From Branchiostoma floridae (taxonomy: Eukaryota > Chordata > Leptocardii > Amphioxiformes > Branchiostomatidae), in NCBI RefSeq assembly GCF_000003815.2, contig NC_049995.1, positions 2,304,994 to 2,368,993 on the forward strand: a DNA stretch of 64,000 nt, read 5' to 3'. Both the position numbers and the translations under genes were made by a program. The notes under the pieces are model-generated. The model made no database searches, was not told the DNA's origin, and saw only the letters and a program-made list of their open reading frames with translations. The first letter of the stretch is position 1. Every line of letters begins with the position of its first letter. Positions 5,402 to 34,800 of this stretch are shown one piece after another.

Positions 5402-8400
5402 CTAGGTACGTCCTGTAAATCAATGAACGAAGGAAGATGAGAAACATTTTCTACAATGAACTACAACTCTAAAGAGGATATTCAACGGTGTTAACATATA
5501 GACATACCATATATATATATCATATCATATGTATATATCTTTTTTTTAAACAATGTCCATAATGGTGCTTTTGAGTAAAGTACCTGGAGCCACCTGGCAG
5601 AAGATGTATTCGATGTGTCGGCATTTCTCGTCATACCAATGCCCCCGACCGGAATGGCTGGAGAAAGCAACGCAGTCTTCATCCCCGTCTTTGTTATCTG
5701 GTTGTTCCACAGTCCACGAGTTGTACCTTCCAAGCGCAGACCCGTCCACCCACTCAAATGTTCCCTCCATGCGCTGATCGTGCAGGCCGATCCAGTAAAA
5801 GCTCCCTTTGTTTCGCTCTAAGGTGACTAGGAACCTGTTGGTCTCAGCGTCTCGGGGCATGGCGAGGGTACCGCCATCTTTGCGACAGGTCTCGGTCGCT
5901 TCGCTGAAGGTCCCGACGAATTTATATTCATTGAACGCTTTGTAGCAGGTTTCACGCCACATGGTATAACCTTCGGGGCAGGATGCTAGAAAAGAAAATG
6001 ATTTAAACTGATACAGCAAAGTTAGCGAGAGTACAAGAACTGAATCACACACACACAATCCAGGACTTTCCAGCTAAACATTCGTAGAATACAGTTTGGC
6101 CCTTTCAGGGTGAAGAAATACAATCAAGTATTATCAAAAAGTACATGTAGTAAGAACATATACTAGTATTGCGCAAAAGGTCAGAGGTGTGCTTAGAAAC
6201 TATTATCAATGCCTCACCTCGTTCAGCTAGTCCAGGGCAAAACGAGTTTCCCGGCAGACCAGGCGGCCCTGGAGGTCCGGGTCGCCCAAAAGACACAGGA
6301 CCAGCCGGCCCTATCGGTCCCGTTTTTCCCAGAGGTCCAGCCGGCCCCACGGCTCCCTTTTCTCCAGAAGGACCAGTCGGTCCCATGGCTCCCTTTTCTC
6401 CAGGAGGACCAGCCGGCCCCATGGCTCCCTTTTCTCCCGGAGGTCCAGGAGGTCCCATGGCTCCCTTTTCTCCTGGAGGTCCAGGAGGCCCGACAGACAC
6501 AGGACCAGCCGGCCCCATGGCTCCTTTGTCTCCTGGAGGACCAGGAGGCCCAACAGACACAGGACCAGCCGGCCCCATGGCTCCCTTTTCTCCTGGAGGT
6601 CCAGGAGGTCCGACAGACACAGGACCAGCCGGCCCCATGGCTCCCTTTTCTTCTGGAGGTCCAGGAGGCCCGACAGACGCAGGACCAGCCGGCCCCATGG
6701 CGCCCTTTTCTCCTGGAGGTCCAGGAGGCCCAACAGACACAGGACCAGCCGGTCCCTTTTCTCCTGGAGGTCCAGGAGGCCCAACAGACACAGGACCAGC
6801 CGGCCCCATGGCTCCCTTTTCTCCTGGAGGTCCAGGAGGTCCGACAGACACAGGACCATTAGGTCCCATTTCTCCCATTTTTCCCTGAGGTCCACGAGAC
6901 CCTGATAGAAACGAGAGTCAGATTGCAATTTGTGTCGGAATCCATGGTTTTTACAATCACGCAACATTTATTCAACCATAATGAGTAACGTCATAGTACA
7001 AACAAGGAACATAATATCTAAGAACGATATTTGAAACATGAGGAACGTCATTGTATCAGTAATCCAAGGACTCGATGTAAGGTAGAAAATTGACATTTCA
7101 TTCATGATATTAGTAATATGTACTTACATTCCAGATCAGCCAGGGCAGGAAACTTCCGTTCTGTCCGGTTGATCAGCTTGTCAATTTGTTTAAACACTTT
7201 GGCCATATCCTCAGAATGTCTGATGACTCTAACTGTATTGAAAATGTTATGGAAAGATGCAAAACTGGCGGTCGACGTACCAAACTTATGTAAGTTCTTC
7301 TCACGTAATAGTTACTTTGCTGTTTACTTTGATTAATTCATGATCAGAAATAGTGACCATAGCAGGTCCAGAATCCGAGTTTCAAAATCGAAATGCAACC
7401 GAAACAAGTATAACCTTCTGATAATGGTGCTCAAAGCAGAGGTTTGACGTCGGTTGTTTTTTGACGTGTTTTAGAAAACGAGACAAAATAGAAGGTCTAA
7501 AAAAACTACTAAAACACTTTTAAAAAAACAGCGAATACCGAACCTCTGCTTGGAGAGTAAAACGGGCCTACTGTACCTGTCAAATATGGCAGCATGATGG
7601 CGACTACCAGGCAGAACACAAACCCAGCGGTTTGCAACAGCTTTTTGAGGAGGCTGCGACATTGTGTCTTGCTGTTAGCGTCCGTATCGTACTCTACATC
7701 TGTAGAAATATCAGATACTGTAAATGAATTTAAGTTCGCAGTAAGACTGCCTCGTGAAAACCGCGAACATAAAACCACCGCGAACATTTCTGTATTTACA
7801 GTAAATCAAAACTTTTTGAAAATGTATGAAGATTTGGGTTTGTTCGATTGTATATTCATTATTGCGGGACACATATCATTATTGGGACACATATCTGATT
7901 GCTATTCTTAAGAACGATACTGCCGTACTTATGAATATAGGGTGGAAGTCTTGAAGTCACTAGCATATACCTGACTAGTGTATACATATGTATACTCTTC
8001 AATCGGAAAGAAATGAAGGAACCAAGTTGAACAACGATATTATGAAATGACGTCACAGTAAATCACTGATAGTGCTCACTGACAACCTGGCCAAAAATGA
8101 AGTACTTGCTATAGGTCATGTATGTATTAAATTGCAGGGCAATGGGACAGCAAAAGAGTATCTTGAATTCCACAATCCGTTTCTCGTTTTACCTGCTCTA
8201 GAGACGTACATCGTGTTGGGTATGTTCGCAGCGGCGTCCGCAATGGTCCTCCAATCAGTCTGGGGCTGCTGCTGGGGCGTGGTGCCTGGAAGAAATATTG
8301 GTATTGGTATGATTTCGAATTCACAGATGATATGATCTTAGGAAGCTTCTTAAAGTGGTCCCATGTATCAGAAAAACTGCAAATTTATTGAAATGCCATT

Positions 8401-11523: not shown

Positions 11524-14500
11524 CTAGGTACGTCCTGTAAATCAAAGAAAGCAAGAAAATAAGAAAAATTTTCTACAATTGAAATTTATAGAGGATATTC
11601 AACTTCACCGTTTAGACATATCATATATATCATATCATGTATATATATTATTTAGAAAGATGTCGATAAATGGTGCTTTTGAGTGAAGTACCTGAAGCCA
11701 CCTGGCAGAAGATGTATTCTCTGTTGTTGCATTTCAGATCATACCAATGTCCCCAACCGGAATAGCTGGAGAAAGCAACGCAGTTTTCATCCCCGTCTTT
11801 GTTATCTGGGTTTCCCCCAGTCCACGAGTTGTACCTTCCAAGCACAGACCCGTCCACCCACTCAAATAGTCCCTCCGAGCGCTGATCGTGCAGGCCGATC
11901 CAGTAAAAGCTCCCTTTGTTTCGCTCTAAGGAGACCAGGAACTTGTTAGTCTCAGCGTCTCGGGGCATGGCGAGGGTACCGCCATCTCTGCGACAGGTCT
12001 CGGTCGCTTCGTTGAAGGTCCCGCCGGATTTATATTCGTTGAACGCTTTATAGCAGGTTTCACGCCACTTGGTATAACCTTCGGGGCAGGACGCTAGAAA
12101 AAAAAATTGGCATTTAAAGGATGTAAGATTATAATCAAGTAAGTGGTAAGAAAATATATTGCGCAAAAGGTCAGAGGTTTGCTTAGAAACTGTTATGGAT
12201 GCCTCACCTCGTTCAGCTGGTCCTGGACACTGAAACGAGTTTCCTGGCAGACCAGGCGGCCCTGGAGGTCCGGGTGGCCCAAAAGACACAGGGCCAGCCG
12301 GTCCCTTTTCTCCTGGAGGACCAGGAGGCCCGACAGACGCAGGACCAGCAGGCCCCATGGCTCCCTTTTCTCCTGGAGGACCAGGAGGCCCGAGAGACGC
12401 AGGACCAGCAGGCCCCATGGCGCCCTTTTCTCCTGGAGGACCAGGAGGCCCGAGAGACGCAGGACCAGCCGGCCCCATGGCTCCCTTTTCTCCTGGAGGT
12501 CCAGGAGGCCCAACAGACACAGGACCAGCCGGCCCCATGGCTCCCTTTTCTCCTGGAGGTCCAGGAGGCCCGACAGACACAGGACCAGCCGGCCCCATGG
12601 CTCCCTTTTCTCCTGGAGGTCCAGCTGGCCCTATGCCTCCCTTTTCTCCCGGAGGTCCAGCTGGCCCCGTGGGCCCTTTTTCTCCAGGAGGGCCAGTTAG
12701 TCCCGTGAGCCCAGGAGGGCCAGCCGGGCCCATGGATCCAGTATGGTCCCGAGGTCGAAGAGACTGGCAAAAGGTCCAAGTGACTGATAAAAACGAGAAT
12801 AAGATTGAGTAACAGCAAAGTACGAAAGTTCACAGTGAGCATATTTAGGAAAACGAACGATTTGTTGAAAACGAGGTATTTCTGGTACAGTAGAAGCCAG
12901 TTCATTGCACAACGGATTAATGGACACGTCTGTTTACTGCACAGAATCCCCAAATCTCAAACTAGCCTGGTATCCAGCCATATTATAGCTCCCGAGTCTC
13001 GTCTGTCTCACATATTTATGGAGAGGGCAGAAGAGACTCGGGAGCTATAATATGGCTGGATACCAAACTAATCCCAAACAAGTGTTGTCCAGTTGGATAA
13101 CTTCGCATCATTGCAACAGCCGGATAATTGCATAAAATTGGCAAATAGGCCCGTCAATTAAGCGACTTCTACTGTATCAGTAAACAAGGTTTAGGAATTG
13201 GCTATCCATTATATAAAGACATTACGTACTTACCTTCCAGATCAGTTTGTGGATGTAACCGCAGTTCCGTCCGGAGCTTGGCAATCTCTTTTGACAGTTT
13301 GGCCATATCCTCAGAATTACTGATGACTTTAACTGTATTGAAAATGCAATGGAGGTGGTAAGATGTGTAACTAGAGGTCGACTTGCCCAAACTTATGTAA
13401 TTTATTCCCAAGAATTAGTTACTTTGCTGGTTACTTTGATTGATTCGTAAATCGTGACCAAAGCTGGCCCAGATTCCAAAATAGGAAAAACAGAATCTCT
13501 GCTGCATTACCTTGTCCTTGGAAATCAAGATATAGCCTCTTAATCTATACAATTTAACTACATAATATACTTGTTACCAAACATATACATGCTATAACCT
13601 TCTTGACAAAAGTAATGGTACTCAAAGAAAATTACAAATTACTATGATGAATACTCCGACAAGAGCTTTAATCTAATAAAACTATTGAAGTCACCACTTC
13701 TAATTTGAAGGAAGGATAAAAGGGCCTGATCTCTTAGCAAAGTTTTGGCTCAGATTATTTTTTGACGTCTTAGAAAACGGGACAAAATGGAAAGCCCGAC
13801 AAAAAGAACGACTGAAAAACGTCAAATAACAACCGAAGCCGAATCTCTGCTTGGAGAGTAGAACGGGCCTACTGTACCTGTCAGAAATGACAGCGTGATG
13901 GCGACTACCAGGCAGAACACAAACCCAGCGGTGTGCAACAGCTTTTTGAGGAGGTTGCGGAGTTCTGTCTTGCAGTTACCGTCCGTAATGGAATCGTACG
14001 TTGCATCTGTGGTAACATCAGATAAATTATGCCTTTTCGAAAATGTTTGAAGATTGGGGTTTGTTCAGTCGTACATTCACTGTTGACTATGAATCAACAT
14101 TACTTAGTTATTACCTTAGGCCATGGGATAAATGAATGTCATGTCTTCGTAGTTCTTAAAGATAAAAGAAGTCTGGTGTCCAGGGTAGTGTGGTCAAATG
14201 TCAGTATATGTATCAGAGTATCAGACAAACTGTAAATATATCGAAATGCCTTTTTTTCTTCAAATTTACGGGTAAATTAATCTGAAAAAGCTTGTGTGGT
14301 CCTACCTACCATGAGAGCCAGTCAGGACCGGGTAGCTAGCGAGTTTTGCTCGGGGAGCCAAGGCAGTCAGCCCGCCTATCTCACATAAGCGCTCCGGGGA
14401 GTTTAAGCCTGAAGGAGTTATCCCTACCCTTGGATAAGGGCGGTTGGACCTCATCAGGCTTAAACTCCCCGGGGCGCTAATAGGAGATCGGGCGGGCCTG

Positions 14501-17287: not shown

Positions 17288-17363
<76 letters not shown>

Positions 17364-17530
17364 ATATGTGTATGTGTGTGTGTGTGTGTATGTGTATGTA
17401 TATACATACACATANNNNNNNNNNNNNNNNNNNNNNNNNNNNNNNNNNNNNNNNNNNNNNNNNNNNNNNNNNNNNNNNNNNNNNNNNNNNNNNNNNNNNN
17501 NNNNNNNNNNNNNNACGCACACACAAATAT
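17270..17530. repeat. CA/TA/TG microsatellite at the centre of the head-to-head lectin pair
   Basis: A (CA)n run passes into (TA)n and then (TG)n, followed by a 100-base gap (17415-17514) and a further short CA patch. The run is itself nearly palindromic and sits near the symmetry centre (about 17240) between the start codons of B and C, where an inverted duplication would have its joint. Assembly there is likely unreliable. Confidence 0.85.
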
Positions 17531-18001: not shown

Positions 18002-21000
18002 ATGTCGGAAGGGAATCAGCAGTCCCAAGCCAACACTGGAGGTAGCAAGTTTTTATTGTTTTTTTTTCGGCTGTTCTTTTCTTTTTTTCGACAAAAGAAA
18101 GCAATTCCGTCCTATTCTTTTTGCTTAGATGATCATGTTTTCATGTTTGAAGTCTTATTTCACATGGCAAGCAAATATTCTTTACATAGACTATTAAAGG
18201 CGGGTAGCTAAAACTATCCGTCAACAGTTTTGTTTATCTTTGATTGTTAGCTTTATGTTAATCTTGGTCGACAATTTCCATCTCTAATGTACCTACATAA
18301 TTTTAATTATTACTAATTATAACTTTTAACACTAGTACAGTTTAGTCACCGGTTGGTTGGTTGGTTCATTCTGCAGTGACGACAAAATGGCCAACTGAGT
18401 TATGCTGTAAATTTCATGACAAAGCCTGATTCTTAAAAAAAATATGCTAAAATCGTCCTGACAGGAAAAGAGGTGGAGAAAATTTGACTTACATGGTCGT
18501 TTTCAAACTTGCCCAAGCCGTTTTGACTCTTTTTCATATTATTGATATACGCAACTCTTTTATCAGTGCTCTCAATGTAGATACACGATGTAAACGTTAA
18601 CTAACGACAACCGGTTTGTACGTACATGTATAATGACAACCACAGACAAAACTGTACAACAAAAACTCTGTGATTTCGTATACACATGTTTTAAGAAAAG
18701 GGAAGAGACATGTAAACGTTACATATAGTGATAGCATAGCTCAAGATGTATTGTTTATTCAACTGTAATACTACATGTGCTTAGTCTTTAGTATCCCATC
18801 ATGGGATTTGCTGCATTTAGCCCACATGGGCAGGAACATGCAAATAAAGATCATCATTATTTCACCTATGAAACTAGACTTTGGGACCACTTTTAGAATC
18901 TTACTTGAATTATTTTACATGTGAATTTGAAAAGATATCAATATTTCTTCCAGGCACCACGCCCCAGCAGCAGCCCCAGACATATTGGAGGTCACTTGCG
19001 GACGCCACTGCCAACATACCCAACCCTCTGTACGTCTCAAGAGCAGGTAAAACATCATTTTTTTAAAGAATTCTAGAAAGGGATTTGGAATTTCAGATAT
19101 TCTTTTGCGTTCTCATTGTTCTGCAATCTAATAGGAAAACTACTAAGTATTTTTTAGGCTTTTTGGCTTGGCTGTCATTGAGCAATGATTCACTGTGACG
19201 TCACTTCATATGATCTGTTTTCGTTCCTTCATCTATTTCCGATAAAAGGGTGTATACTAGTCAGGTATATGCCACAGTAGCTTAAGATATCGGTATTTCT
19301 ACCCTACTTTTATAACACACGCGGTACGGTTTCAAATAATAGTAATTACGTGCCCCAATGATATTCCCTACAGAGCCGCGCCTTGGCTAATACTGTAAAT
19401 GCAGAAATGTTCGCGGTAGTTTTATGTTCGCGGTTTTCGAGGTAGCCACTTTACTGCGAACTTAAAACCACCGCGAACATTTTTCCATTATAGTATGTGA
19501 CTACAGTCTACGGTGCTACCGCAAACTTAAAACCACCGCGATAGTCCATTTTCCCGCTACCGTGAAAGTGATCCCCGCGAACCTAATTCCTATAGCCCTC
19601 TCCTTTCTTCATCATTACACAATACTGTCANNNNNNNNNNNNNNNNNNNNNNNNNNNNNNNNNNNNNNNNNNNNNNNNNNNNNNNNNNNNNNNNNNNNNN
19701 NNNNNNNNNNNNNNNNNNNNNNNNNNNNNNNNNNNNNNNNNNNNNNNNNNNNNNNNNNNNNNNNNNNNNNNNNNNNNNNNNNNNNNNNNNNNNNNNNNNN
19801 NNNNNNNNNNNNNNNNNNNNNNNNNNNNNNNNNNNNNNNNNNNNNNNNNNNNNNNNNNNNNNNNNNNNNNNNNNNNNNNNNNNNNNNNNNNNNNNNNNNN
19901 NNNNNNNNNNNNNNNNNNNNNNNNNNNNNNNNNNNNNNNNNNNNNNNNNNNNNNNNNNNNNNNNNNNNNNNNNNNNNNNNNNNNNNNNNNNNNNNNNNNN
20001 NNNNNNNNNNNNNNNNNNNNNNNNNNNNNNNNNNNNNNNNNNNNNNNNNNNNNNNNNNNNNNNNNNNNNNNNNNNNNNNNNNNNNNNNNNNNNNNNNNNN
20101 NNNNNNNNNNNNNNNNNNNNNNNNNNNNNNNNNNNNNNNNNNNNNNNNNNNNNNNNNNNNNNNNNNNNNNNNNNNNNNNNNNNNNNNNNNNNNNNNNNNN
20201 NNNNNNNNCATTCGTCATAATCATCTGTCATTTTCTGGGTACAATTAGTTACAACAATTTTCATCAATCAATGACTGTTTTTGAAAAGGTACAGTACATA
20301 CCTTCCAAATTTTCGATGTCTACCATCATCGGTACATGATGTATTGGTAGACATCGAAAATTTGGGAGGTATGTCCTGTACCTTTTCAAAAACAGTCATT
20401 GATTGATGAAAATTGTTGTAACTGTTTGCATACGTGACTGATGAACCTCTTCAATGAGTACAATTAATTTCGCCAAGAAGGTTATAGAATTCATATTTGG
20501 TAACATGTATATGCGGTTAAGAGTACACTCGTCGGCCTTTAGTTACGCACCTTACGACCTCAATTGTATTTTCAATACAGTTAAAATCATCAGTCTGTCT
20601 CAGGATATGGCTAAAGAGAATGCCAAACTGTCTAGAGAGATTGACAAGCTCAGGACGGAACTGCAGTTACCTTCACAAACTGATCTGGAAGGTAAGTACG
20701 TAATGTCCTTATATAATGGATTCCCAATTTCTGCTTTGAATAAACACGAAAATACCTCATTTTCAACAAATCGTTCCTTTCATTAAATATGCTCACTGTA
20801 TACAAACGTGCTTTTCTGTTACTCATTTTGGTTGGATAAATCTGGCATGATTGTAAAAAACAATCCGACTCTCGTTTTCATCAGAGTCTCTTGGACCTCG
20901 GGACCAACCTGGAGGCATNNNNNNNNNNNNNNNNNNNNNNNNNNNNNNNNNNNNNNNNNNNNNNNNNNNNNNNNNNNNNNNNNNNNNNNNNNNNNNNNNN

Positions 21001-22237
21001 NNNNNNNNNNNNNNNNNNNNNNNNNNNNNNNNNNNNNNNNNNNNNNNNNNNNNNNNNNNNNNNNNNNNNNNNNNNNNNNNNNNNNNNNNNNNNNNNNNNN
21101 NNNNNNNNNNNNNNNNNNNNNNNNNNNNNNNNNNNNNNNNNNNNNNNNNNNNNNNNNNNNNNNNNNNNNNNNNNNNNNNNNNNNNNNNNNNNNNNNNNNN
21201 NNNNNNNNNNNNNNNNNNNNNNNNNNNNNNNNNNNNNNNNNNNNNNNNNNNNNNNNNNNNNNNNNNNNNNNNNNNNNNNNNTGCACTTTCTGAGCCTCTG
21301 ACCTTTTGCGCAATATATTGTCTTACTTCTTACATGATTGTAATCCTACGACCTTTTCTAGCGTCCTGCCCCGAAGGTTATACCATGTGGCGTGAAACCT
21401 GCTACAAAGCGTTCAACGAATATAAATTCATGGTGTCGACCCGGTTCAGCGAAGCGACCGAGACCTGTCGCAAAGATGGCGGTACCCTCGCCATGCCCCG
21501 AGACGCTGAGACTAACAAGTTCCTAGTCTCCTTGGAGCGAAACAAAGGGAGCTTTTACTGGATCGGCCTGCACGATCAGCGCTCGGAGGGAAAGTTTGAG
21601 TGGGTGGACGGGTCTGCGCTTGGAAAGTACAGCTCGTGGACTGTGGAACAACCAGACAGCAGATACGGGGATGAAGACTGCGTTGCTTTCTCCAGCCATT
21701 CCGGTCGGGGGCATTGGTATGCCTTGAAATGCCACTACAGATCATACATCTTCTGCCAGGTGGCTCCAGGTACTTCACTCAAAAGGCACCATTTATCTAG
21801 TCTCCAAGCAGNNNNNNNNNNNNNNNNNNNNNNNNNNNNNNNNNNNNNNNNNNNNNNNNNNNNNNNNNNNNNNNNNNNNNNNNNNNNNNNNNNNNNNNNN
21901 NNNNNNNNNNNTTGTTCTAAATGATATATATGTAATACAGTAGAAGCCGCTTTATTGCACAGCCTATTTGCCAGCTTATTTTGTGCCATTATCCGGCTGG
22001 CGCGATAATGCGAAGTTATCTGAGGTGGACCGCACTGGTTTGGGATTCCGTGAAGCTAAAAGAAGTGTGCGTTAATCTGTTGTGCAATTAATTGGCTTCT
22101 ACTGTATGGGATTATATAAAATATGTCTAAAGGATAACACAGCTGAATATATATTCTCTTTACAATCTAATTATAGAAAGTTATTCTCATTTTCCTTCAT
22201 TCATTGATTTACAGGACGTATCTACGAGCTCTCATGA
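18002..22237 (+). CDS. Type II membrane collagen-stalk C-type lectin, copy C (gapped)
   Basis: Plus-strand exons seen: 18002-18041, 18954-19046, 20581-20691, start of the collagen exon 20885-20918 (continues into gap 20919-21281), lectin-domain exon 21362-21769, terminal exon 22215-22237. The transmembrane exon is missing and must lie in gap 19631-20208. All visible junctions are phase 1. Exon 1 encodes [13 protein letters not shown]; the neck exon has an extra KENA and heptad-like spacing (KLSREIDKLRTELQL). The lectin domain has WIGL, six cysteines and QPD. It carries a two-residue insertion (FMVSTRFSEA versus FVGTFSEA) and reads WYALKC where the others have WYD. The D-to-A change removes a side chain that binds Ca2+ in sugar-binding family members. 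The terminal exon gives GRIYELS and stop. The total length cannot be given because of the gaps. Confidence 0.82.
19391..19600. mobile_element. MITE with TACTGTAAAT end, next to a gap
   Basis: Starts TACTGTAAATGCAGAAATG and repeats TTCGCGGT and ACCACCGCGAACAT several times in both orientations. The right end probably falls at or in the gap starting at 19631. Same family as 7716-7803 and 26479-26660. Confidence 0.7.
19631..20208. other. Assembly gap, expected to hold the transmembrane exon of lectin C
   Basis: A run of 578 N. By comparison with genes A and D, the 123-129 nt transmembrane exon should lie between 19046 and 20581; the sequenced remainder of that interval does not contain it. Confidence 0.75.
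20249..20422. repeat. Near-perfect palindrome (about 77-bp arms) in lectin C intron
   Basis: Left arm 20249-20325 and right arm 20345-20422 are inverted copies (GTTACAACAATTTTCATC at one end, GATGAAAATTGTTGTAAC at the other; GATGTCTACCA and TGGTAGACATC at the loop). They differ at two or three positions, with a 19-base loop. Gene D has continuous intron sequence at the same place without this insert, so it is a recent foldback insertion. No open frame. Confidence 0.85.
20919..21281. other. Assembly gap covering most of the collagen exon of lectin C
   Basis: 363 N replace the repetitive Gly-X-Y coding sequence. The exon start (AGTCTCTTGGACC) is present before the gap and intron sequence (ACCTTTTGCGCAATATA) follows it. 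The stalk length of copy C is therefore unknown. Confidence 0.85.
21936..22106. mobile_element. MITE with TACAGTAGAAGCC ends, lectin C last intron
   Basis: Ends TACAGTAGAAGCCGCTTTAT and AATTGGCTTCTACTGTA are inverted repeats; GCACAGCC and GTGCAATT extend them. Sister copy of the interrupted element at 12886-13176. It sits between the lectin-domain exon and the terminal exon. Confidence 0.8.
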
Positions 22238-23893: not shown

Positions 23894-26800
23894 ATGTCGG
23901 AAGAGGATCAGCAATCCCAAGCCAACACTGGAGGTAACAAGTTTTTATTGTTTCTCTGCCTGATTCTTATTTTTCGACAAAAGACAGAAATTTGCCCACG
24001 CCACTTTGTAAGGGTTTCTGCTCACAGTGTTATCGCGTCAGACATATGCTGTGAATTTCCTGACTAAGTCTGATCTTAAAAAGATATATACTCAAAACGT
24101 CCCGAAAATCAGCAGAAAAAGAGGTGGACAAATATATTCGTTGGGTTCATTACATGGACTTTTCTAAAACCTTGCCTCCGCAATTTTGACACTTTTTGAA
24201 GGGTCACGTATCAGGGGTCATCGCGTCAGACAGATGACTTCTGAAAATAAACATTTCGATAAATTTGCAGTTTGTCTGATACCTGAATTGACCTGGGACA
24301 ACTTTGAGAAACTTCTTCAGATTATTTTACATGTACCATGTTTTTAAATATCAACATTTTCCCCAGGCACCACGCCCCAGCAGCAGTCCCAGACTTATTG
24401 GAGGTCCCTTGCGGACGCCGCTGCGAACATACCCAACACGATGTACGTCTCCAGAGCAGGTAAAATATTTTGATAGAAACGGCTTTCTGAGCCATGTTTG
24501 GGACCGTTTTCTCACCGCAAAAGCGCCACCTACATCGGCTACATGAGAAGCAGAACTCTAGTTAGAAGCTCTGACGAAGGTGTCTGAGAGACATCGAAAC
24601 GTAAGCAATGTAAGTACTTTCTGGTTGTGTAATAAGAATTCTACTTCATCCTATATTCTACCAACCTGATGAAACTTTTTTCGGGAGTCTAAAGCAGTTG
24701 TCACTAAGACGTTGTGACGTTACTTGAAATGATCTGATTCCTAATTAGTTCCTTCATCTATTATTACTGATGGAAGAGCCTGTGCACGATTTGTTACAAT
24801 AGCGCCACATATATTCATCAGAAAAGCGGTATCGTAATGAAGAATAGTAAGCAAATGCCCTAATTATAGAAGTATTGATTCAAAGCTTACAGTGAATATA
24901 GAGAAACACAACTTCAAAGAGTCTTCAAACATTTTGGAAAATGTTTCATTTATCTGACATCAACACAGGTGCAACGTACGATACGGGCGCTAACAACAAG
25001 ATTAAGACGAAGTATCGCAGCCTCCTCAAAAATCCGTTGCACACCGCTGGGTTTGTGTTCTGCCTGGTAGTCGCCATCATGCTGCCATATTTGACAGGTA
25101 CAGTAGGCCCGTTTTACTCTCGAAACAGAGGTTGGGTTTTGGCTTTTTCATGACGCGTTGCGGGCGTTTTCGCCGGGTTCTCCATTTTGTCCCGTTTTCT
25201 AAAACGTCAAAAAAACAGCCGAGGTCGAACCTTTGCTTTTTAGAGAGCAGGTCCTTTTAATTTATTTCTTCAAATTAGACATGATGACTTCATCAGGCTT
25301 GTCAGTTTAAAGCTCAGCTTGTCGGAGTATTAATTATAATAATCTGTCATTTTCGTTGAGTACCATTACTTTCGCCAAGAAGGTTATAGCATGTATATGT
25401 TTGGTACCGTGTAAATGTAGTTAATTATATAACTTAAGTGGCTACAAGTCGATTAATATGAAGCTATAGGTTGTTAGGTACTCTGAAATCGAATAATTGC
25501 CCCCCCCCCCCCCCCCGTACGGGTTTCTAAGGGACTGCAGCAGAAATTCTGTTTTTCCTATTTTGGAACCTGGACCAGTTATGGTTACCAATTTCGAATC
25601 AATCAAAGGGATAGGCAAAGTAACTAGTTCTCGGAAATAATGTACATGCGTTTGCGCAATTCGACCTTTACTTATACGCATGTTATCACCTCAATTGCAT
25701 CTTCAACACAGTTAAAGTCATCAGTCTGTCTGAGGATATGGCCAAACTGTCAAAAGAGATTGCCAAGCTCCGGACAGGACTGCGGTTTCCTGAACAAACT
25801 GATCTGGAAGGTAAGTACATAATGCCCTTGTATATAATGGATTGCCGATTTCTACCTAAGCCCTTGTTTATTGATACCAGAAAATACCTCATTTTCAACA
25901 ATTAGTTCGTAACTGGTAGCGAGTTCGGCTCGGAATCTAGAGGTCCTGAGTTAGATCCCCGCCGTGCCCCCGACGTTGTGCCGTTGGGGTTGTGCACTTT
26001 ACACAACCTTCCTCACAAGTTCACCCAGGTGTAAAAATGGGTACCTAACTTCGGTCGGGGAGGTAAAGGACTACCTTTACCTTCTGTCTGTACCGTGTAT
26101 GTGGCACTGCTAATATATAAGTTACGTATACAAGACTTTAGTGCAGTGCCACATTGTCCTCGTCTGTCCAAAAGCAAATAGTTGGTTTTTTTCTTCAAAA
26201 TGCTCACCATGTATGTACTTTTGTGTAACTCACGATGGTAGAAAAAATGTGGCGTGGTTGTAAAACCATAGATTCGTTTTATCAGAGTCTCTTGGACCTC
26301 TGAACCAAACTGGAACCATGGGGCCAGCTGGTCATCCTAGAGAAGGGGGAGTCATGGGATCGGGACCGACTGGCCCTGTGTCTGTCGGACCCCCAGGGGC
26401 AAAGGGAGCTACTGGACTAACTGAACGAGGTGAGGCATCAATAATAGTTTCTAAGCAAACTTCTGACCTTTTGCACAATACTGTAAATGTATTTAAGTTC
26501 GCGGGGATTTGATTTCGCGGTAGCACTATACACTGCGGTGGTTTTAAGTTCGCGGTAGCACCATGCACTGTAGTCTCTTACTGCCATGGAAAAATGTTCA
26601 CGGTGGTTTTAAGTTCGCGGTGACATTAAACCACCGCAAAAGTTTCTGTATCTACAGTATATTTTCTTACTAGCTGTACTTACTTGATTGTAATTCTTCA
26701 ACCTCGGGAAAGGGCCAAACTGTATTGTAGAAAAAGTTTTGAGTGGGAAGTCCAGGAATGTGTGATTCCGTTCTTGTACTCTTGTTGACCCTGCTGTACC

Positions 26801-27585
26801 GCTAGTTCACCATTATCCGTAGGGTAACCTTTATCCGTCCTTTTTAAGAACAATGTATTAAGGTATATCAAGTCGACAGATGGTGGTTTGAAACTATCTT
26901 GAAAATAGTACAATTTGAAACTACCGTTCATCGACTTCTGAATATCCCTGGCCTTGTTTAGCAGTGACAACGGATATAGGTTTAAGGCGGATAAAGGTTA
27001 AGTAACGTTATCAATCTAAATCTGTTTTTCTAGTGTCGTGTCCAGAAGGTTATACAAAGTGGCGCGGAACCTGCTACAAATTGTTCAACGAAGTCCCAAG
27101 GACCTTCAGCGATGCGGGTGAGACCTGTCGCAAAGATGGCGGCACCCTCGCCATGCCCCGAGACGCTTGGATCAACGGCTTCCTCGCCACCTTGTCTAAC
27201 CGCAACAACTATTACTGGATAGGTCTGCACGATCCGCGCACGGAGGGACAGTGGGAGTGGGTGGACGGGTCTAAGCTTAGAAAGTACAGCTCGTGGTCCG
27301 AGGGACAACCAGATAGCAAATACGGGAACGAAGATTGCGTTGTTTACAACAGTAATGTCCCTGTAGCCGGGTATTGGTATGACCTGGAATGCCACAACAA
27401 AGAATACTTCTTCTGCCAGGTGGCTCCAGGTACTTCACTCTAAAGCACCATAAATACTAGTATATAACGTTACATATTTTAATATTCTCTTTAGAATATT
27501 ATTGCCATCGCAGAACACATTTTCCCTCGTTCTTTAACTTACAGGACGTACTAGACGACAGGCTGAGCTCTCACCGCAATTATGA
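23894..27585 (+). CDS. Type II membrane C-type lectin with shortened collagen stalk, copy D
   Basis: Seven plus-strand exons, all phase 1: 23894-23933, 24367-24459, 24969-25097, 25712-25810, 26286-26429, 27034-27429, 27545-27585; 942 nt, 313 residues. N-terminus [13 protein letters not shown]; cytoplasmic segment; transmembrane segment ([16 protein letters not shown], about 71-87); neck (88-120, [15 protein letters not shown]); a collagen-derived exon of only 48 codons with few consecutive Gly-X-Y triplets; lectin domain (169-300) with WIGL, six cysteines, QPD and WYD. The terminal exon encodes [13 protein letters not shown] and stop, longer than in A and B because their third codon of this exon became a stop. 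The lectin domain is the most divergent of the four. With so little collagen, a stable triple helix is doubtful; trimerisation by the neck alone is possible (inference). Gene D is the closest to SF3B6, as in the presumed original order. Confidence 0.87.
24562..24624 (+). ncRNA. Hammerhead ribozyme-like motif
   Basis: The conserved core is present in order: CTGACGA (24571-24577), a hairpin GGTGTCT-GAG-AGACATC for stem II, GAAA (24596-24599), then a 4-bp stem III (ACGT with ATGT around loop AAGCA) and the expected U-A before the cleavage position (24611-24612). Stem I is short: GCT pairs with AGT, and AGAA with TTCT across an internal loop. Short type I hammerheads of this form are known from Penelope-like retroelements and related sequences, so this is probably a remnant of such an element in the second intron of lectin D. 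Catalytic activity is not shown. Confidence 0.6.
25500..25516. repeat. Poly(C) run
   Basis: A run of 17 C in the intron of lectin D; it may be a sequencing or assembly weak point. No function seen. Confidence 0.9.
25905..26165 (+). mobile_element. Second SINE family, copy in lectin D intron
   Basis: TAGCGAGTTCGGCTCGGAAT, GGTCCTGAGTTAGATCCCCG (degenerate B-box) and then GTGCACTTTACACAACCTTC, CCCAGGTGTAAAAATGGGTA, CCTAACTTCGGTCGGGGAGG. This order is typical of tRNA-derived SINEs common in marine deuterostomes. A very diverged relative may lie at 34325-34450 (GTTGTGTCCTTGTGAAAGGC, ACTTAACACCTATTTCCTCA). It sits between the neck and collagen exons. Confidence 0.72.
26479..26660. mobile_element. 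MITE with TACTGTAAAT ends, lectin D intron
   Basis: Starts TACTGTAAATGTATTTAAG and ends GTTTCTGTATCTACAGTA, with repeated TTTTAAGTTCGCGGT motifs inside. Same family as 7716-7803 and 19391-19600. It lies between the collagen and lectin-domain exons. Confidence 0.78.
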
Positions 27586-29458: not shown

Positions 29459-31461
29459 CTATTTAGCCTCCGTTCTTGCTGCGTCTCCCCCGACTCCATA
29501 CTTGGCCTTGAGCTTGGAGAGTTCCTCCTCCTTCTTCTTCTGGTCGACCTTCTTAAATGCCTATAAGAAGGGGAACAGAAATGCAGGACTCCATGAGAAA
29601 AAAATGATCACACATTGTATTTACCTGACATTAGGAAAATGAAAATTTACACTCATGTAATTTATTGTAAACAAAAAATGACACGAAATTTATGAAGTAA
29701 ATGGTATATGTACAAACAAAAACATTAAGAAAGTTTGATTTTATTATACTAATTTATAGATGAAATAGAAAGCTGACTTTTTCGTGACGTACATACATAT
29801 ACAGCAACGCATACATCATATTCATAGCAAATACAGTACTGTTGTAAAGGGTGCTATTATAAAATGTACATAATGCTTATAATACAATGCAACTGAAAGA
29901 GTAACCATGGAAGTATAATAAACTGTGAACAACTGTTAGCTGTAACTTTTTCAAAAATTCATGTTTTAAAAGGATTTCAAAATCAAATACAACATTGAAA
30001 ACTCAATATTCAACACATAACAATAGCCAATATTCTTAAAAAATGATGATATAATATGCTTTATTAGAAACAAACTATCCTTGGCGGCAAGCCGGAAATA
30101 TTGAAGAACTGCCTACCCTGTTGGGTTGGTAGTAAAGTACCACCAGATATCTGTTGCACACGTTAAACCCTGAGAGATGGTCGCAGGCATTCTTCGCATC
30201 AAAGATGTCTTCATAGACAACATATGCTGTGCCCTTTGTCTCTGGTGTGTTACCCCTGAAAAAAAATTAAGAGCACGAATATTAGTTGATCCCACATTTA
30301 CTTGACATTATGGCATTGCCATAACTTCTAGAAAGAAATCCATATATACTAAATACAGTTTTGGCAAATTACAATATTAGCACTATTCGATAATCATCAG
30401 TTAGAGTTTGTATATATCCCATAATGCTTTGCTCAAATCTATCCCATAAAGCCTTGCACACTGAGCTGTAACAGAAAACACAAATTGGGTACTAAAAATT
30501 GTAAATATGAACCAAAATGTAAAATATGATTTCTATAAAATGTTCCCGAAAGTACCCTAGTGACAATTATGAGACTTTATGGTCAAGTCATATCTTAATT
30601 CGTCTGCTAAAGAAGTTTTTAGTGTAAAGCGTCATGGAACCACAACACAAAGACGTCAAGAGAATTGCCCCTATATAAAGGCAGCACACCTGTACTCCTT
30701 GGCGTGTTGTATGAAAGGAGAGAAGGTTAGCACTCCCCTTGATAAGGACGGAAGACCCGCTTGCGGGTTTACAACACATATACGGTTAAGGCATTGCCGC
30801 CTACTTCGCGGCATCTAACCAATTTTTTACGGTCGTCACTTTTACACACACATTCAATAAAAAAACTTCGGTACATCTACAAGACCGTCTCTACATGGTG
30901 CTGACCAGGCAAGGGTAATGGACAATTTTTTTATGGATAACCCTTTGATTTAAGCTGAATTTACCGTCCCTGACGCGTTATGTGCACTATGAAAAAGCCA
31001 GAATATTCTTTAGTAGACATTTATGTGGGCTTAAGCCGGAAGAAGAAGAATTTTCGGACAAAGTCAAGGGATCGTTGACTTACATTCGGATCTGTCTGAT
31101 GGCGCCGTACTTGCCGAAGATGTCGTACATCTCCTCTGCTGTGATCTTGTAGGGAAGGTTCCGCACGTAGAGGATTCGGTTCACCTCTGGCGGCAACCGA
31201 ACCTGGGAAAGGGAAGGTGGAATTTTTTTAGAGGAAGGAAAATCATACATGTTTCCAAGCACAACAAGGCCAAGCACCCTATTCGAAAATCGGGATTTAT
31301 ATAAAAATAAGCGATCATAGGACTCATCGAACTAGCAAACCAAAATCAACGATGTACAGACTATAAATAAAACCCTGTTTTGAGCATATTTTGACGAAGA
31401 AGAAGGTTAAATTGGCGTTTTTTCTACTCACATTCGCCTTTCTCGCTGCTTGCATCGCCAT
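29459..31461 (-). CDS. SF3B6: Splicing factor 3B subunit 6 (p14), branch-site binding RRM protein
   Basis: Four coding exons on the minus strand: 31432-31461, 31084-31202, 30117-30255, 29459-29560; 390 nt, 129 residues. The N-terminus [18 protein letters not shown] is nearly that of vertebrate SF3B6. A single RRM follows: RNP2 ILYVRNLP (about 20-27, with the tyrosine at position 22 known in the human protein to contact the branch adenosine) and RNP1 KGTAYVVY (about 57-64). A lysine-rich C-terminal helix follows; the last residues ([11 protein letters not shown]) differ from vertebrates. Known role: subunit of the SF3b complex of the U2 and the U11/U12 snRNPs, in the nucleus. A strong pyrimidine tract and AG at about 31502 suggest an intron in the 5' UTR. 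Intron 2 hosts the U6atac gene on the other strand. It is divergent from the TPD52-like gene. Confidence 0.95.
30672..30679 (+). promoter_or_regulatory. TATA box of the U6atac gene
   Basis: TATATAAA ends 25 bases before the predicted first base of U6atac (30704), the spacing expected of type 3 RNA polymerase III promoters. A proximal sequence element should lie around 30640-30665, but its amphioxus consensus is not known to me, so I do not place it. Confidence 0.75.
30704..30828 (+). ncRNA. RNU6ATAC: U6atac small nuclear RNA (minor spliceosome)
   Basis: The sequence begins GTGTTGTATGAAAGGAGAGA and continues AGGTTAGCACTCCCCTTGA, GACCCGCTTGCGGG (internal stem-loop), ACGGTTAAGGCATTGCC and CCTACTTCGCGGCATCTAAC, then TTTTTT (30823-30828). 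This matches, from memory, the human U6atac snRNA along nearly its whole length. Kept elements include the 5'-splice-site-pairing AAGGA, the U4atac/U12-pairing region and the 3' stem-loop bound by the U11/U12 65K protein. U6atac forms the catalytic core with U12 when U12-type introns are removed. It lies within intron 2 of SF3B6 on the opposite strand, with its own TATA box and a T6 terminator, so independent Pol III transcription is expected. No disabling change was seen, so it looks functional. Confidence 0.95.
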
Positions 31462-31865: not shown

Positions 31866-34800
31866 ATGGACGGCACAACTCCTCCAACAAGACCAGACTC
31901 TCTCTATCCAGACGTCACGAAACCAGGTAAAATACAAACCGGGGGTTCATAAATGGGGGGAGGGGCCTTGGTGTTTATATTTTTCTTTCCGCTTTGGGGA
32001 GGGCAAAGCTAAAATCAATGGGACAAAATTATAATACATGTCGCACCAACACGTCTAACGATTCGCAACGTCTAGTTCCAGCGTAAAAGTGTTAGCTGTA
32101 ATCATATTTACGAAAACATTGCATGTAAAAAAGACATTATTTAATACTTTTGTCGCTTTAAAAATATATCGTGATGTTGTCGAATGTGGAAATGGTGACT
32201 AAATGTCACATGATTATTTCCATGACCTTATTTTTGTCCCGGATCCATAATTTTGTTGTTAGCGAGTTATGGTCGATATTTTCGAGGAAGAATGTCTGTA
32301 GTAAATATCCACATCATTCAGAATATATTGAATTTATCTAAAAACATGGTATTGTATTATATGATATCCAGGAACATACAACTTATTACAAGGGAATGTA
32401 CCTGATTAACATGTTCCATATTGTAGCAGTAAGGGGGGAAAATGAAGATGAAATTCTTGCATGAATTTGTAAAGAATTGACATTAAAAATTACTTAGCCA
32501 CTAGGTTTTTCTAGTATAATTTTTGTAAATTTTCAAAACTGATAAATTTCTGAAAGCTGTTGATTTAAATTCACTATAATTTGCTAACCTTGCATATTTA
32601 TAACCCTCATTGGAAAATTCCATCCAGAAAACAGGAAGTTTGACCATAAAACAGCAAAATCAAAAGTGAGATCATATCAGCCGTATACACATAAACGATA
32701 AACCATTGATAGCAATTACCATGTAATGAATAGGAAACATATCCATAAACCTTTAAACTAATTAGGAAACCCAGTCATAGTAGAGACCCTTAATGTAATT
32801 AGGAAACCAACCAATAGAGAGATTCTCCTAATGATTCAATGCCAACAGCATAATTGCAGACAAAGGTTCTAGATTGACAAGCAGATTTGAGTTAAACATC
32901 AGCAATTCTCGCTGATTGGAGCCAGAGCTAAAATGACTGTCGCCAAGAAGCATCTAGGCTGAAATTTTGTATCTGGTCATTTTTGTACTGAAGCTGTTGT
33001 TATCATTTTGCAAAGATGATCTTAGTCTGTCCTTAATTTTAAGATATTCTAGTTGGAAAGTAAAGATGTAATGAATTCCTGTTGGGCTGGTTTTTGGGGG
33101 TACTTGTTTTTCTGGTACTGCCTCAATGCCTGGAGGACATGGAGGAAGTGGATATGTTACCTATCGTGACTGATTTTAAGTGTTTAATGTTAGAAAGGAG
33201 TAGAAACAGACAGAAACAATATCCTCCCAGGATTCGAACCCGCACTGAATCCGGGCTGCCAGACCACAAACCCAGATGCTACTAGTAAACTGTTACGTTA
33301 TGCCAAAGGCTCAGAGCCATTTGACATGGATGGTTTGGTAGTCTTACTGTTACATTAACTTAAAGACCTCTCTTTCAAATTTTAAAGCTGGTTCGTGATC
33401 GACAGGAAGAAAACCTCGCTTGATGAGCCCACAAGCTCAAAAGGATATCTATTGTTTGCAGGTTACTTACTTACTGAGTTCTCAATGAAGTGAATTTTAC
33501 TTAGAAGAATTATGTGCTCAATTCTTGAACAAGTTTGAAATTTGGTGTCCATCTGGTGATCAAAACAATTTGGCAGAAGGTCATTTTATAGTGTGATGCT
33601 GGCTTTAGTACTGACAATAAATTGGGATTGCTTTCAGCTCATGCAAGAAGCAATGGCTCTCAAAAGAAATTCCTGCTTGTCATTTGAGATAAACTGCTGC
33701 TATTTCAGTATTTTTATTTGTTTACAAATTCAGAAGATGAGGTTTCTTGAGGACATGTATGCTTTCATGTAGATGTGCACCTGTTAGCAAAAATGTTTGG
33801 AACTGTAGACTGCTGACTCCCCCCAGGGGCTTGGAATAGCCACCTGCATTGCAGGAACAATTGATATAAACAATGTGTAATTTGCATAACTATGATAATA
33901 CAAAGTCACCTAATAGTTCAAGAGCAAGAACTGCATTTTGAACACTGCTCCAAATCTATCTGTGTACTCAAAACTTGGAATACATTGAGGGGAAAATTCA
34001 GTTTTATGCCAGAACATAAAACTCTTACTCTTAGTCTTAGCTTGGGTGTCATTACTACTACTGTATGGGACTCAAATTTTACAAAGAAGGAGAAAGGAGT
34101 CATTTGCAGTGTTTGGTTGCGATTGAAACAACTGCAGTCGCACAATGCACTACTACATGTAGTACCACATAAAATCACTGTGAATATTTCACAATTTACT
34201 GTTAGTTACTGTACCATGGTATATTCTCACAAGACAAATGGGAAATCCTAAGTTACATGTACAATGTACAATAAAGTTATGATTTTATGGGAATTCATCA
34301 TTCCCTTTACCAATGTTAACAATCAAATTTTAGGTTCTGGGACGGTTCACATCCCTGGCAAGCCACAGTGTTGTGTCCTTGTGAAAGGCACTTAACACCT
34401 ATTTCCTCACTGGACGCAGGTGAAAATAGTGCCTAGCTTTTGGTTACGGACATCCTCTTACTAGATGGACTGTAAAGCAGGATGCCCCATGTTTGAGGAG
34501 AACCACACCTCTGGTAGGATAATTGAAGATTTGAAGTACAAAACATTTATCCAAAAGAGCACTTATTAGGAGTCCATCCCAAAGTGATATTGATTTATAC
34601 CTTGCAGTCTGGTCTCCAGTTTGACATCTTGAAAAGGTGATGGTCACCTGTTATGTCAATCCTTCCACTGATGAAGGACGTTAACGTCCTTGCACTGATG
34701 TGGTATGTCTCAATAAACAAACAAATAAATAAATATCACAACTTCAATTAAGATAGTACAGAATGCTAAACTGTTTATGTTTATCTTATACAAGGTCACT

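Follow-up and report, generated by a model that had tools for sequence, protein, structure and literature searches.

We found a complete U6atac snRNA gene within the second coding intron of SF3B6, on the opposite strand, in a 64-kb window of Branchiostoma floridae DNA (the whole stretch analyzed, 64,000 nucleotides). In the minor spliceosome, U6atac serves as the catalytic snRNA. We consider it probable that the gene works as an independent unit from a Pol III type 3 promoter of its own, and that it came to be nested in SF3B6 most likely by chance.

Identity and integrity of the U6atac gene

Among the 4227 Rfam families scanned against the window, U6atac (RF00619) was the only one at or above its gathering score. 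The match covered positions 30704–30830 on the plus strand and the full length of the model (positions 1–126 of 126), with 133.6 bits (E=8.8e-33) against a gathering score of 33. A first-pass annotation of this DNA had described a complete U6atac gene here and had proposed a covariance-model search of the window; the full-length match and the retention of every modelled base pair bear out that description, and the search scored the gene as intact and not pseudogene-like. The gene end given at that stage, 30828, is the last base of a T run, while the Rfam match reaches 30830.

30704..30828, plus strand: U6atac snRNA gene including the terminal T run (RF00619 match to 30830, with pair analysis)

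Compared with the Rfam consensus, 110 of the 126 positions of the match agreed, among them 48 in the first 50. It is through this 5′ region (the first ~50 nt) that U6atac base-pairs with U12, U4atac and the U12-type 5′ splice site. The first 25 nt of the gene equal the human U6atac morpholino target printed in PMC3728624. Furthermore, all 14 consensus base pairs were formed: 10 were unchanged and none was broken, while in four both partners differ from the consensus, three of these lying in the central hairpin and one in the 3′ hairpin. Because every pair forms, four of them through changes on both sides, the locus is, as judged from its sequence, an intact gene under constraint rather than a decayed copy. 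Folding of the gene strand was also more stable than that of most shuffled sequences (z=-2.32); 5 of 200 shuffles equalled or surpassed it. On this basis, the copy in the SF3B6 intron looks functional.

The flanks were examined as well. No direct repeat of at least 7 bases was shared by the 60-bp flanks of U6atac, so there was no sign of retroposition. A poly-A tail directly after the gene was absent, and a run of seven A's lies ~30 bases further on. A pseudogene or retrocopy was judged unlikely, with no modelled pair broken, no flank repeat, and both the TATA box and the terminator in place. Within the 64-kb window there were no further U6atac copies; three other blastn matches to the gene were 16 to 22 bases long (E=0.25, 0.25 and 0.87). 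Searches with exact U6atac patterns found nothing in viral_contigs or genome_contigs, neither of which is meant to cover animals.

Promoter elements and terminator of U6atac

The following elements were located around the gene, with positions given relative to its start at 30704.

30416..30433, plus strand: Staf/ZNF143-like site 1, putative distal element, at -288 (15/18 against the Staf/ZNF143 consensus)
30441..30458, plus strand: Staf/ZNF143-like site 2, putative distal element, at -263 (16/18 against the Staf/ZNF143 consensus)
30672..30678, plus strand: TATA box TATATAA, starting at -32 (sequence and shuffle test)
30823..30828, plus strand: six-T Pol III terminator TTTTTT (read from the sequence)

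In type 3 Pol III promoters the TATA box lies at about -30 (PMC8362101). When the 448 upstream bases were shuffled, TATAWAW starting between -35 and -26 was obtained in 24 of 1000 shuffles.

Further upstream, the two Staf-like sites are arranged in tandem, their starts 25 bp apart; the consensus applied was vertebrate-derived, a point against the assignment. In shuffles of the same 448 bases, two or more sites scoring at least 15/18 were seen in 5 of 1000, and one or more in 109 of 1000. The window as a whole contains 18 sites scoring at least 15/18 (16 besides the U6atac pair), three of which score 16. With so many such sites in the window, neither site counts for much by itself; what matters is that they are paired and where they stand. 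Apart from the pair upstream of U6atac, no two of the 18 lie within 60 bp of each other on the same strand. Site 1 also contains the only CCCATNATGC in the window; with 0.40 expected by chance, this is weak alone, and the motif appeared at least once in 38 of 100 whole-window shuffles. Both ZNF143 motifs given in PMC7154149 share CCCATNATGC as a core, and this review describes the distal element of snRNA genes as bound by ZNF143. That element typically lies ~200 nt upstream (PMC8362101), and the pair at -288 and -263 is somewhat farther away than this. We suggest that the tandem sites may be the distal element of U6atac. The octamer ATTTGCAT at 7/8 had no match in SF3B6 intron 2, and the looser octamer ATTTGCAW had two 7/8 matches there.

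No convincing PSE stood out near -50 with a vertebrate consensus, and the best candidate was equalled by 293 of 2000 random sequences. The first-pass description of the gene as promoter-bearing is thus upheld for the TATA box and the terminator and plausible for the distal element, and is uncertain for a PSE. The PSE bears on whether the copy seen here could be an inactive duplicate of a working gene located elsewhere in the genome. Although the failure to identify a PSE would fit such a duplicate, the sequence is free of structural decay, carries double compensatory changes and keeps both TATA box and terminator, and a single U6atac copy was reported in the tunicate Didemnum vexillum (PMC5006418). 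We therefore regard an inactive duplicate as improbable, and favor a working gene that would be transcribed from its own promoter.

The host gene and the geometry of the nesting

Four coding exons on the minus strand join into a reading frame that is open throughout and encodes a 129-aa protein. Exon and intron numbers refer to coding exons only.

31432..31461, minus strand: SF3B6 coding exon 1 (joined exons)
31084..31202, minus strand: SF3B6 coding exon 2 (joined exons)
30256..31083, minus strand: SF3B6 intron 2, GT-AG, 828 bp, host of U6atac (between coding exons 2 and 3)
30117..30255, minus strand: SF3B6 coding exon 3 (joined exons)
29459..29560, minus strand: SF3B6 coding exon 4 with the stop codon (joined exons)

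The best solved-structure match of the protein was p14/SF3B6 (E=1.1e-69, residues 1–123), and it contains one RRM (Pfam RRM_1, 9.2e-16). Coding intron 2 encloses the complete U6atac unit, Staf-like sites and terminator included, on the opposite strand; 448 bp of the intron precede the U6atac start and 255 bp follow the T run. Taken together, the RF00619 match, the exon model and the p14 match confirm the antisense placement in intron 2 that the first-pass annotation had proposed. By position and promoter elements only, SF3B6 thus hosts an antisense intronic Pol III unit.

All three coding introns of SF3B6 are GT-AG, and a U12-type 5′ splice site was absent from each of them. Feedback through minor splicing of SF3B6 itself was considered and rejected, as none of the three coding introns has such a site.

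On the other side of SF3B6, the gene (start codon at 31461) and a plus-strand frame from an ATG at 31866 diverge, with 404 bp between the start codons. This frame reads MDGTTPPTRPDSLYPDVTKP and is followed by a GT splice-like site; the two could possibly share a promoter.

Chance nesting or coupling of the two genes

In the reading that we favor, an autonomous Pol III U6atac gene would sit in a permissive SF3B6 intron and be driven by a type 3 promoter comprising the TATA box at -32, a probable distal Staf-like element and the T-run terminator. The nesting would have arisen by chance, and would have persisted because so compact a Pol III unit, with intron to spare on both sides, does little harm to the host transcript. 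Strong coupling between the two genes would then be lacking, and U6atac would perhaps interfere mildly with SF3B6. Elsewhere, Pol III units have been found nested in other genes, and one minor snRNA gene is known to overlap a gene for a protein.

How surprising such a nesting is can be gauged roughly. With ~300 splicing-factor genes of ~10 kb intron each in ~500 Mb, a random gene would be nested in one of them ~0.6% of the time. There are nine kinds of spliceosomal snRNA, several of them multi-copy, so a genome with one or more nestings of this sort would be no great surprise. The narrower target set after the fact, a minor snRNA gene in an SF3b or U11/U12 gene, would be rarer, on the order of one in several hundred. 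According to the first-pass annotation, the human SF3B6 and U6atac genes probably lie on different chromosomes.

The shared function of U6atac and SF3B6 is suggestive of more than chance. According to PMC7469106, all SF3B subunits, including SF3B14a/p14, are identical in both spliceosomes; this agrees with the earlier statement that p14 is common to U2- and U12-type particles, and makes SF3B6 a shared factor and not one specific to the minor spliceosome. U6atac has a short life in human cells, where it is limiting and needs both polymerases (PMC3728624). At title level, the literature on U6atac with amphioxus or with SF3B6 yielded no title on a U6atac gene nested in SF3B6, and a narrow literature search on nested antisense snRNA genes returned no matching paper.

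The closest known system is Polr3e, where in mouse and human an antisense Pol III unit, a MIR, lies in intron 1 of this gene for a Pol III subunit, so that here too the host's product serves a related machinery (PMC5358760). This unit causes a Pol II roadblock, and its deletion removed the roadblock and raised the protein level almost 1.5-fold (PMC5358760). The two systems differ in that the Polr3e unit is a SINE with an internal promoter and its interference was proved by deletion (PMC5358760), whereas SF3B6 hosts an snRNA gene with an external promoter that is known here from sequence alone. Among 984 HeLa-cell Pol III peaks located within genes, the same study confirmed 22; a second cell line also showed 15 of the 22, which fall in nine Pol II units, and Pol II accumulated in five of five Pol II-occupied host units with confirmed peaks (PMC5358760).

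These data bear on a second account, in which transcriptional interference couples the two genes: U6atac Pol III would block Pol II in SF3B6 intron 2, or Pol II would disturb U6atac, setting a shared splicing factor against a limiting minor snRNA. Since all five occupied units accumulated Pol II, some slowing of Pol II would be expected if SF3B6 and U6atac are both active, and the Polr3e precedent is a close one (PMC5358760). However, its authors regard such cases as very few and the effect on expression as likely to depend on both transcription levels, the effect is modest in size (PMC5358760), and SF3B6 has no U12-type intron, so direct feedback via minor splicing would be missing. By this analysis, coupling through interference may be at work but is rather unlikely. 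A further step would make the locus a selected cis-regulatory pair: antisense transcription would link the level of a shared SF3b subunit to how much of the limiting minor-spliceosome catalytic snRNA is made, and the capacities for major and minor splicing would be balanced from a single locus; we regard such selection as very improbable.

Coupling could also run through RNA, if the excised SF3B6 intron 2 paired with U6atac and lowered its activity when SF3B6 is highly transcribed. The intron 2 transcript contains a perfect reverse complement of all 125 nt of U6atac, although every gene nested in antisense shares this property. Two points count against such pairing: excised introns usually turn over quickly, and U6atac exists as a folded, protein-bound RNA. 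The complement does cover the part of U6atac against which the morpholino of PMC3728624 was directed. Overall, we think it very improbable that the intron acts in this way, and return to a self-contained gene nested by chance as the preferred reading.

The gene resembles metazoan U6atac genes (RF00619) in sequence, structure and length, as judged by the Rfam model. Its location in an SF3B6 intron may set it apart from them. Another protein gene that overlaps a minor snRNA gene is CLASP1, which, unlike SF3B6, is not known as a splicing factor. Human RNU4ATAC, which overlaps CLASP1, resembles the present case as a minor-spliceosome snRNA gene that overlaps a protein gene (PMC13400782).

If the nesting proves to be conserved and functional, SF3B6 would join Polr3e as an instance of regulation by a Pol III unit from within an intron of a gene for related machinery, and SF3B6/U6atac would be a simple locus for testing cross-talk of the two spliceosomes. 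If it is due to chance, the locus still provides a clean annotation for a U6atac gene of the animal type, in an unexpected host.

Other features of the window

At E values up to 5, 34 other Rfam rows were obtained in the window, all under their gathering scores and nearly all from miRNA families; many of these fall on simple repeats. In the simple-repeat region at 17294–17416, several miRNA families matched on both strands, all below gathering scores, and these matches are likely artefacts. The region at 1–2035 is repetitive, and its minus-strand frames repeat a motif like VCCLVYVSVSPVPMKLKAQCLSSQ, interrupted by N runs. Moreover, a cluster of open frames that by eye are collagen-like (Gly-X-Y) and C-type-lectin-like occurs on both strands, at 5549–6917 (minus), 11651–12829 (minus), 20857–21921 (plus) and 26264–27440 (plus). 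Among the frames of this cluster, Pfam assigned Lectin_C only within 5549–6073 (E=5.1e-23) and 27006–27440 (E=4.3e-23).
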